In this document: piece by piece, positions 4,819 through 55,981 of the stretch
Position numbering within the stretch: position 1 is the stretch's first letter
Layout: each line of letters starts with the position of its first letter
From: Alphaproteobacteria bacterium
GTDB lineage: Bacteria; Pseudomonadota; Alphaproteobacteria; Rhodobacterales; Rhodobacteraceae
Assembly (NCBI GenBank): GCA_003331935.1
Contig: QOQE01000008.1
Span: 1 to 64,000, forward strand
DNA length: 64,000 nt
Direction: 5' to 3'
Notes under the pieces: generated by a model
Seen by the model: only the letters and a program-made list of their open reading frames with translations
Database searches by the model: none
Told to the model about the DNA's origin: nothing
Program-made: the position numbers and the translations under genes

Positions 4819-8993
<4,175 letters not shown>

Positions 8994-9021
8994 CTCTGAA
9001 AAAACACTGAAAAAGCAATTT

Positions 9022-9064
9022 GTTTTTTATTTGTTCTTTACATGTTCTACTTATGTTCTATAAT
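9022..9064 (+). promoter_or_regulatory. Triple LexA half-site (alphaproteobacterial SOS box) over a promoter
   Basis: Three exact GTTC tetramers occur at 9033-9036, 9044-9047 and 9055-9058, each separated by exactly seven bases. A degenerate GTTT at 9022-9025 continues the 11-base phase upstream. GTTC-N7-GTTC is the established LexA operator of alphaproteobacteria. The repeats overlap a likely promoter, TTTACA (9037-9042), 16-base spacer, TATAAT (9059-9064), so bound LexA would cover both elements. The -10 ends 19 bases before the ATG of the microprotein at 9084. LexA itself is encoded at 55294-55935 with its own box of the same type. Confidence 0.88.
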
Positions 9065-9083
9065 ATTATCAAGGGAGAGCAAA

Positions 9084-9200
9084 ATGAAGAATAAACCACC
9101 TTTTTTACATATAGAAAAGAGCGTAATAGTAGACATTATTAACTTATTAATTATCGGAATGTCACTTGTTCTGTATGGATTAGTTAGTTTTTGTTTTTAA
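9084..9200 (+). CDS. Putative SOS-induced 38-residue single-pass membrane protein
   Basis: An ATG at 9084 follows a good ribosome-binding site (AAGGGAGAG, 9071-9079) and opens 38 codons ending in TAA at 9198-9200. The product has a short basic cytoplasmic head (residues 1-13, three lysines and one histidine) and one hydrophobic segment of about 25 residues reaching the C-terminus, with an aspartate at 17 and a cysteine at 37. A promoter covered by three LexA half-sites lies directly upstream. Caulobacter SidA, an SOS-induced inner-membrane peptide of similar size that blocks division, is the closest functional precedent I know; I claim no sequence homology. The 3' end overlaps the convergent NifU-like gene by 21 bases. 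Expression is predicted, not shown. Confidence 0.78.
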   Translation: MKNKPPFLHIEKSVIVDIINLLIIGMSLVLYGLVSFCF

Positions 9201-9617
9201 GCCAGAAACTTTTCGGAGGGCTTCAATCGAAGCATCAAGCACTAGAAGAACAGAATCATGTCTATATGGAACTTTTTGAACTGGTTCAAAGTATTTATAT
9301 CTTGTGAATGGATTTCCAATTGAAAAGTTTCCTGTTTCAAGGAATGTTTTTAAGTTTTTTCTTAGTTTCAATATAGTGTCAACATCAGTTCCAATCGCAT
9401 GGGTGAGAAAAATACATGCTGATGCCTGACCAAGGGCGCATGCCTTTATGTCAAGGCCGAATGCACTTATCTTAGCTTCTACAATATTCAAGTCCAGTGT
9501 GATACTTGAGCCGCATATTGCAGTCCTTTTGGTAACACTGATGTCTGGATCTTTCAATCTACTTGTCACTGGAATTGTTGAAGCAAGCTCTAAAATATTA
9601 TTTGTGTATAAATCCAT
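9180..9617 (-). CDS. NifU/IscU-like iron-sulfur scaffold protein lacking the third cysteine
   Basis: The 145-residue protein has the NifU N-terminal/IscU fold signature. C35 is in the AICGS motif, and C60 is in KACALGQASA. The position corresponding to the third cluster cysteine of IscU (C106) reads PYRHDS (117-122) with no cysteine, although C68 lies nearby. Alphaproteobacterial genomes carry a family annotated as iron-sulfur cluster assembly scaffold with this pattern, so the loss may be a family trait. It is not in the suf operon. It diverges from hisI, with only about 40 bases between the starts. Whether it carries clusters or is a sulfur-handling relative is uncertain. Confidence 0.8.
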   Translation of the reverse strand: MDLYTNNILELASTIPVTSRLKDPDISVTKRTAICGSSITLDLNIVEAKISAFGLDIKACALGQASACIFLTHAIGTDVDTILKLRKNLKTFLETGNFSIGNPFTRYKYFEPVQKVPYRHDSVLLVLDASIEALRKVSGLKTKTN

Positions 9618-9657
9618 TTGTGTTAAAAAACCCCGATATCGACAGAAGGACTATAAA

Positions 9658-9996
9658 GTGAATGAAATAAAATTTAAACAAAAAATGGAGACTTTAAAGT
9701 TTAATGATAAAGGTTTAATTCCGTGTGTCGTACAGGATCATGCTAGCAAAGAAATTCTTATGCTCGCCTGGGGTTCAAAAGACACGTTAGTTCAGACTTT
9801 CTCAAGTGGCTTAGCAACATATTGGTCGCGATCGAGAAAAGAGATTTGGGTCAAGGGAAAAACATCTGGCAATATCCAAGAAATAAAAAAAATATATATT
9901 GATTGTGATAAAGATTCTGTCCTGTTTGAAGTCAAGCAAACTGGGGCAGCCTGTCATACTGGCTCTAAATCTTGCTTTTTTGTCGAACTACTTTAA
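9658..9996 (+). CDS. hisI: Phosphoribosyl-AMP cyclohydrolase HisI
   Basis: HisI opens the purine ring of PR-AMP in the third step of histidine synthesis. I place the start at GTG 9658, eight bases after an AGAAGGA ribosome-binding site, giving 112 residues; an ATG at 9685 would give 103. The metal-binding DCDKD motif is at residues 82-86. The three zinc cysteines C83, C99 and C106 have the exact 16- and 7-residue spacing of characterised HisI. It is the single-domain form, without fused HisE. Its last codon overlaps the end of convergent trmFO by 4 bases. No other his gene is nearby. Confidence 0.93.
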   Translation: MNEIKFKQKMETLKFNDKGLIPCVVQDHASKEILMLAWGSKDTLVQTFSSGLATYWSRSRKEIWVKGKTSGNIQEIKKIYIDCDKDSVLFEVKQTGAACHTGSKSCFFVELL

Positions 9997-55293: not shown

Positions 55294-55935
55294 TTAATAT
55301 TGCCTTATCAAGCCAATCAAAATTCCTTGAATGGTAATTTGACCCGCTGAATATATTCTGGTTTCAAATGCTTGATTCGCAGCCTCTAAGGCAATGGTGT
55401 CTCCACGCTTTCTAAATCTTTTTAGTGTAGCTTCATTTTCATTTGTCAAAGCAACCACAATATCTCCATTGTTCGCTGTACTTTGTTTCTTAATAATTGC
55501 AAAATCTCCATCATTTATACCAGCATCAATCATTGAGTCGCCTTTTATTTCAAGAACGAAGCTATCTGACCCTTTGGTTAATTTTTTTGGAACATGTAAA
55601 CAATTCTCACCAGACTCTATAGCTTCTATAGGTAACCCAGCAGCTATTCTTCCAACTACAGGCAACTTAACAACATGATCATTGCTTTTTGTGTTTTTAT
55701 GATCTGAGAGTATTTGCTTTGCGTTAGATGGTTTTAATATTTCTATAGCTCTTGCCTTAAAGGGTAACTTTTTAATAAATCCTCGCTCCTCAAGACCTGA
55801 AATAAGTCGGTGAATACCTGATTTTGATTTAAGCCCTACTTTTTTCTTCATTTCCTCAAAAGAGGGTGTAACTCCTGACAAAGATATTCTCTCTTCTAGG
55901 AATAAGAAAAGCTCATGTTGTTTTTTCGTTAACAT
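55294..55935 (-). CDS. lexA: SOS repressor LexA
   Basis: LexA represses SOS genes and cleaves itself when RecA is activated. The 213-residue protein has an N-terminal winged helix (about 1-65), the self-cleavage site A99-G100 in RIAAG, catalytic serine S134 in GDSM and lysine K172 in EATLKRF. A strong ribosome-binding site (GGAGGT) precedes the ATG. A LexA box lies in its promoter. Its other visible target in this window is the microprotein gene at 9084-9200. Confidence 0.97.
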   Translation of the reverse strand: MLTKKQHELFLFLEERISLSGVTPSFEEMKKKVGLKSKSGIHRLISGLEERGFIKKLPFKARAIEILKPSNAKQILSDHKNTKSNDHVVKLPVVGRIAAGLPIEAIESGENCLHVPKKLTKGSDSFVLEIKGDSMIDAGINDGDFAIIKKQSTANNGDIVVALTNENEATLKRFRKRGDTIALEAANQAFETRIYSAGQITIQGILIGLIRQY

Positions 55936-55961: not shown

Positions 55962-55981
55962 GTTCTTGTTTTGTTTGTCAA
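55962..55981 (-). promoter_or_regulatory. lexA promoter with LexA box
   Basis: On the plus strand GTTC (55962-55965), seven bases and GTTT (55973-55976) form a one-mismatch alphaproteobacterial SOS box. On the minus strand a consensus -35 TTGACA (55981-55976) directly adjoins it, so the box fills the promoter spacer. This is the expected site for LexA autoregulation. The promoter starts next to the moeA stop codon. Confidence 0.75.

Follow-up and report, generated by a model that had tools for sequence, protein, structure and literature searches.

A putative LexA-controlled membrane microprotein gene beside recG and its multi-half-site operator in Rhodobacteraceae

Introduction

The direct repeat GTTCN7GTTC has been described as the LexA box of Caulobacter (PMC12700426, PMC4211646). 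In Caulobacter crescentus, the SOS-induced protein SidA, only 29 aa long, interacts with FtsW (PMC4211646). The window analysed here, a stretch of 64,000 nucleotides from a Rhodobacteraceae genome, contains a frame of 38 codons between recG and a SufU/NifU-like gene, preceded by a series of such GTTC units. This raises the question whether the short frame is a gene, whether LexA controls it and what its product could do in a cell with damaged DNA. The preliminary description of the locus had proposed an SOS-controlled membrane microprotein, with SidA as a functional precedent. The microprotein gene is missed by annotation, and we found no description of it in the literature, where a mention in the Rhodobacter capsulatus lexA paper or in the first SidA paper is possible. 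The main text of a study listing LexA sites of Dinoroseobacter names lexA, recA, dprA and others, and the microprotein gene is not named there (PMC6473078).

Results

An array of GTTC half-sites covers the promoter elements of a short frame

The features of the locus are collected in Table 1, together with lexA, which lies in the same window. Three GTTC units and one GTTT unit at steps of exactly 11 bases, placed over a promoter in front of a 38-codon frame, had been noted before, and all of them were confirmed. The units span the arrangement TTTACA-16-TATAAT; the two hexamers match 11 of 12 consensus bases, and TATAAT lies 19 bases from the ATG.

Table 1 Coordinates of the microprotein locus and of lexA in the window.
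Feature	Position	Strand	Remarks
recG	6987..8993	+	gene immediately upstream of microprotein
Degenerate first half-site GTTT	9022..9025	+	GTTT in 11/15 homologs, GTTC in 2/15, GTTA/GTAA in 2/15
LexA-type half-site GTTC	9033..9036	+	perfect in 14/15 homologs
-35 element TTTACA	9037..9042	+	promoter motif reading
LexA-type half-site GTTC	9044..9047	+	perfect in 13/15 homologs
LexA-type half-site GTTC	9055..9058	+	perfect in 15/15 homologs
-10 element TATAAT	9059..9064	+	16-nt spacer to TTTACA
Ribosome-binding site AGGGAG	9072..9077	+	purine-rich stretch in same place in most relatives
Microprotein gene, 38 codons, MKNKPPFLHIEKSVIVDIINLLIIGMSLVLYGLVSFCF	9084..9200	+	homologs in 14/21 other genus genomes, pN/pS 0.32
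SufU/NifU-like gene	9180..9617	-	TIGR01994, 45.6 bits, below cut-off 92.5
lexA, proposed repressor	55294..55935	-	TIGR00498, 190 bits, cut-off 110.95; same window
Half-degenerate lexA operator AAAC-N7-GAAC	55962..55976	-	one perfect, one changed half-site

The pair GTTC-N7-GTTC occurs three times in the window against 1.34 expected, a number equalled in 15 of 100 shuffles, and a three-unit array arose once in 60 windows simulated with a first-order model. Genome-wide enrichment of the pair is absent, as the own genome has 28 sites and the reversed control 44, and it was dropped as evidence. A chance origin of the array is excluded because its units are conserved across the homologs of the genus.

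The microprotein frame runs from the ATG at 9084 to the stop codon at 9198-9200, and its last codons are overlapped by the convergent SufU/NifU-like gene. Read from an ATG further upstream at 9042, within the operator, this frame remains open as well and would give 52 aa. The ATG at 9084 is the start shared by 15/15 homologs, and a purine-rich stretch precedes it in most of them. The protein has a short basic head and a single uncharged, putatively membrane-spanning helix at its C-terminus, with no charged residue in the helix past D17. AlphaFold2 predicts one helix over residues 6-37 (mean pLDDT 83.8), a prediction that carries no information on function. Matches to PF15795 (Pfam, E 0.031) and NF058670 (NCBIfam, E 0.21) were weak and below the cut-offs, and PHROGs gave one weak match (E 0.042).

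The frame is conserved as a protein-coding gene within the genus

The genus of the window genome, uncultured Rhodobacteraceae that we take to be of marine origin, is represented by 22 assemblies including its own. The preliminary description had named missing conservation of frame or array in close relatives as a result that would speak against its proposal, and had suggested a search for homologs beside recG or the SufU-like gene as well as an analysis of synonymous substitutions. The outcome was the opposite of such a loss, as frame and GTTC array are kept. The search was positive in 14 of the 21 other genomes, each with a full-length homolog of 71-76% identity; among the remaining seven, G006 gave a match at chance level only (E 0.4) and six gave none. 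The SufU-like gene is present in 16/22 assemblies, own included, and 15 of these 16 have a microprotein homolog. All 16 carry a small frame with a GTTC array at the locus when the divergent frame of G008 (L085, about 1300-1460) is counted, a 39-codon frame after recG that is preceded by four perfect GTTC units. The six assemblies without the SufU-like gene are also without a homolog, an absence that is uninformative because these assemblies are only 58-80% complete. The four-unit array of G008, at 11-base steps, is the longest regular array in the genus.

The substitution analysis likewise showed a synonymous bias. For the microprotein gene pN/pS is 0.32, and none of 200 column shuffles was as low. 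Variable columns are distributed over codon positions 1, 2 and 3 as 14, 10 and 27 of 37; the homologs are equal in length, and both other frames hold stops in 15/15. Judged from its substitutions, the frame is a coding gene.

Conservation extends to the operator, which has three perfect consecutive units in 13/15 genus homologs and at least three of its four units in 14/15. G004 and G010 have the variants, in which both outer units are intact and one or both of the units between them are altered. The operator core TGTTCTTTACWTGTTY is found once per genome in 15 of the 22 assemblies, compared with one occurrence of its reversed control across all 22.

The half-sites match those of recA and lexA in the genus

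The own genome encodes a LexA with DNA-binding and S24 peptidase domains. Among the 22 assemblies, lexA was located in 12 and recA in 17. GAAC-N7-GAAC stands upstream of recA in 15/15 genus genes with a readable start, two further recA matches being partial, and upstream of lexA in 10 of the 11 genes read, the start of one further gene not having been found. The own lexA gene carries the half-degenerate operator of Table 1, compared with GAAC-N7-GAAC in 10/10 other genus lexA genes read. The lexA operator of G008 has three units.

The 28 exact two-unit sites of the own genome were sorted by position. Two belong to the array described here, 20 lie inside frames of at least 100 codons and six lie outside such frames or at their edge. 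Among these six are recA, a gene for a Y-family polymerase (PF00817) and an ImuA-like gene with a weak match, far below the cut-off (E 0.0095). The ImuA-like (L001, G000:C1) and ImuB-like Y-family polymerase (L310, G000:C25) genes are on separate contigs, each with its own GTTC-N7-GTTC.

Triple arrays at 11-base steps were found in 69 of 149 genomes, and 30 loci in other genera were examined. Fifteen of them precede lexA, two precede this microprotein gene and 13 precede neither. A triple GTTC array was consequently rejected as a marker of the microprotein gene alone, as 15 of the 30 loci belong to lexA. In G068, 46 places match the triple pattern, many of them as GTTCRTGCA; they form an 11-base repeat family dispersed through this one genome.

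The same half-site pair at recA and lexA of the genus, together with the triple arrays before lexA elsewhere, supports the earlier reading of the array as a LexA site. Control by LexA is well supported by this comparison, and repression by LexA with induction upon DNA damage is almost certainly the regime of the microprotein gene, as far as its sequence context can tell.

A counterpart with a composite operator stands beside recG across the family

Some of the triple arrays outside the genus preceded a frame of 39-41 aa after recG, and for this reason the recG flanks of the family were surveyed. We located recG in 179 family genomes and took the 3' flanks from the first 140 listed, one per genus. 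As seeds we selected 129 frames of 34-46 aa that have a hydrophobic end, lack K/R in the final 18 residues and have a GTTC/GAAC pair no more than 170 nt away. A profile built from these seeds, and thus trained on those flanks, finds the protein in 131 of the 140 flanks, always on the recG strand. Two genomes outside the survey set were also matched (E 3.5e-17 and 9.2e-13). Of the nine flanks without the gene, four belong to genomes that hold it elsewhere (E 3.4e-15 to 1.3e-4) and five to genomes with no match, so that at least 135 of the 140 genomes, one per genus, have the gene. As judged from these flanks, it occurs family-wide and is tied to recG.

The family protein is of membrane type and roughly 40 residues long (seeds 34-43 aa). 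Among the 129 seeds an acidic residue D is present in 128, a G three residues later in 123 and a P near the end in 116, residues of a D..G motif and an LP end. Its best 19-residue hydropathy has a median of 2.16, compared with 2.26 for the window protein. Four family members tested against Pfam and NCBIfam gave no match, nor did two tested against PHROGs, and no PDB chain was matched by the family profile.

The family operator reads GTTC-N6-GTTC-N7-GTTC-TTTAC, followed 23 nt further by GAAC-N7-CAAC, with the consensus tttGTTC.CaaATGTTCT.AaAAAGTTCTTTACa....g.....aataTGAGAACAAAg.ggCAACA. Of the 131 flanks, 124 contain GTTC-N7-GTTC, 105 contain GTTC-N6-GTTC-N7-GTTC and 114 contain GAAC-N7-[GC]AAC, where mononucleotide shuffles give 0.1, 0 and 0.8, respectively; operator and hydrophobicity counts among the seeds are partly built in by the selection rules. 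In 100 of the 123 flanks tabulated, the next GAAC follows the direct repeat at a distance of 23, and no such array was found in the nine flanks without the gene. Eight copies are known through the profile only, outside the operator rule: four relocated copies, two from non-seed flanks and two from the outside genomes. Seven of these eight carry GTTC-N7-GTTC and then a distal GAAC, which indicates that the operator moves with the gene. The exception, G209 (L217), has a reduced operator with one GTTC, TTGACA and GAAC-N7-AAAC and without a direct repeat.

These data also qualify the earlier proposal that the locus has an operator longer than the standard. That it has more than two half-sites holds; that this is peculiar to the gene or genome does not, as triples are common at lexA and the family composites reach five.

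The window protein is a positional counterpart of the family protein

The window protein agrees with the family protein in its position after recG, strand, size, single helix and the GTTC-TTTAC core of the operator. Spacing differs, the genus operator being N7-N7-N7 and that of the family N6-N7 plus the distal GAAC pair. The family profile does not match the window protein (-1.2 bits, a score reached by 1283 of 1985 shuffled copies) and gives 0.9 bits for the G008 frame, where 73 of 1709 shuffles are as good. A profile-profile comparison of genus and family, aligned on D, yielded E 0.0078 at a probability of 5%; against the 129 seeds its score was reached by 11 of 200 shuffles. With no profile match and a marginal profile-profile score, the window protein was not accepted as a family member proved by sequence. 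Direct search of the family with the genus profile (295 genomes) was rejected as well, as it rose above chance in the own genus only; seven other matches were at E 0.012-0.09, four of them within frames of at least 147 aa. We see in the window protein the positional counterpart, and probably the ortholog, of a family protein that evolves fast, homology not being proved by sequence.

The operator layout recurs in a second family

In 337 genomes of the class, the family profile gave six matches at E 0.01, four of them in the same family, and the own genome was unmatched in this search. Spread outside the family was rejected as far as the protein profile goes, since the two non-family matches are weak and fall within frames of 401 aa and 362 aa. 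The operator pattern, searched in 385 class genomes, gave five matches, in 3 of 5 genomes of the same family and in 2 of 3 genomes of another family, f116 (G430 and G621, not G533). There it precedes a hydrophobic frame of 34-35 aa, a candidate SidA-like gene. In both genomes (L320 and L321, around position 1500) the operator, of the form GTTC-N7-GTTC-TTGAC...GAAC, is flanked by a LolD-like ABC ATPase gene and dnaE, neighbours that were identified in G430 and by resemblance in G621. Presumably, Caulobacter sidA also lies near dnaE.

A mobile origin was considered and set aside for one family member, which as a query had no match among 72,556 plasmids and 50,697 phages at E 0.01. The eight genomes positive in a whole-genome search with the family profile each contain a single match.

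Discussion

We give somewhat better than even odds, by analogy with SidA, to the reading of the microprotein locus as a single-gene SOS unit that encodes a LexA-repressed, SidA-like division brake. LexA dimers on GTTC half-sites at 11-base steps would cover the region from -35 to -10 and close the promoter, and the extra half-sites probably make repression cooperative and tight, for a product that is harmful when leaked. Upon DNA damage, RecA-stimulated cleavage of LexA would free the promoter, and the 38-residue protein would be made. It would insert with its N-terminus in and its C-terminus out, the basic head remaining cytoplasmic, an orientation that we consider highly likely. Contacts of its helix with the septal synthesis complex (FtsW/FtsI/FtsN) could then hold back division, as SidA does in Caulobacter, a step that we judge modestly probable from the analogy. 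Division would resume once repair lets LexA re-accumulate. Nothing in the window sequence favours FtsW over other membrane targets. The helix of YneA is described as localising and interacting with FtsW, and alone it does not block division (PMC13396833).

Doubts may be raised about the gene and its regulator as well as about the target of its product. The frame is very short, and an untranslated stretch in which the conserved element is merely an operator or an RNA might look similar; the bias among codon positions, pN/pS of 0.32, equal length of the homologs, stops in the other frames and the motif of the family protein make this extremely improbable. The array might also be genuinely regulatory and be read by a regulator other than LexA. 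The family operator mixes one 10-base with one 11-base step and adds a distal GAAC/CAAC pair, because of which a part of it may be the site of another protein. We nevertheless hold a regulator other than LexA to be very unlikely, as lexA and recA of the genus share the half-site pair and its spacing, and triples precede lexA at 15 of the 30 loci.

The target leaves more room for other readings. A peptide like TisB or DinQ would insert in the inner membrane, lower its potential and the ATP level, and slow the cell or render it dormant, without acting on the divisome. DinQ, an SOS peptide with a single helix, is described as depolarising the membrane (PMC3567139), and the size, single helix and elaborate operator of the microprotein gene would fit such a peptide. 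According to the same source, DinQ and TisB belong to the type I toxin-antitoxin loci and have antisense RNAs (PMC3567139), whereas at our locus the 19 bases from TATAAT to the ATG leave no room for a long leader. An Rfam search of 8800-9700 was without match, an undescribed RNA being possible, and the sole promoter-like match on the minus strand (9626-9597) is outside the microprotein frame. The helix, furthermore, is uncharged past D17, and a single match per genome in eight genomes and no plasmid or phage match for one member speak against a mobile toxin module. Altogether we consider a peptide of this kind unlikely. We assign a similarly low probability to an SOS-induced membrane adaptor with another partner, such as a regulator of a membrane protease, an ion transporter or an anchor for RecG or the repair machinery. 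The gene is linked to recG in 131 of 140 flanks, and D stands at the helix start in 128 of 129 seeds, both of which suggest a specific partner; the linkage, however, is not needed, as four genomes keep gene and operator elsewhere, and several known SOS-induced small membrane proteins are described as targeting the divisome (PMC13396833).

A wider and still doubtful reading can be formulated, in which a single-helix microprotein that evolves fast and an operator of several half-sites that evolves slowly would travel together as a LexA-operated module common to Alphaproteobacteria, an SOS checkpoint. The Rhodobacteraceae version would be the one after recG, and the second family would have the same operator layout beside LolD-like and dnaE genes. 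Should this hold, the five-half-site operator (three direct units plus an inverted pair 23 nt on) could accommodate a higher-order LexA complex, release of repression could be all-or-none, and a general division brake would be traceable by its operator rather than by its protein sequence.

The microprotein may be the family's brake on cell division under DNA damage, and its presence in at least 135 of the 140 genera examined makes it one testable candidate across many strains. The composite operator lends itself to testing whether the strength or the timing of repression is set by extra LexA half-sites. An operator that can be traced further than its protein also helps to find short genes that annotation misses.

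Among known systems, the autoregulatory arrays of lexA in the same family resemble the operator in layout, with three half-sites spaced by 11-base steps immediately in front of the gene; they differ in preceding lexA, in the GAAC orientation and in standing after TTGACA. TisB and DinQ of Escherichia coli are likewise small SOS-controlled membrane peptides, and differ in being type I antisense-RNA loci (PMC3567139), of which we found no sign at the window locus. YneA of Bacillus, SosA of Staphylococcus and ChiZ of Mycobacterium are described as damage-induced small membrane inhibitors of division (PMC13396833). YneA and ChiZ continue past the helix with a LysM domain, whereas the window protein has almost nothing beyond it. 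DidA of Caulobacter, of 71 aa and binding FtsN, is a small single-helix inhibitor of division after damage (PMC4211646); it is longer than the window protein and is controlled by DriD instead of LexA. SidA, compared here by its description, shares with the window protein an alphaproteobacterial host, very small size and, as predicted for the latter, LexA control and an inner-membrane location (PMC4211646, PMC12700426), and differs from it in that the window protein is longer (38 aa; family seeds 34-43) and that a near-invariant acidic residue marks the helix start in the family.
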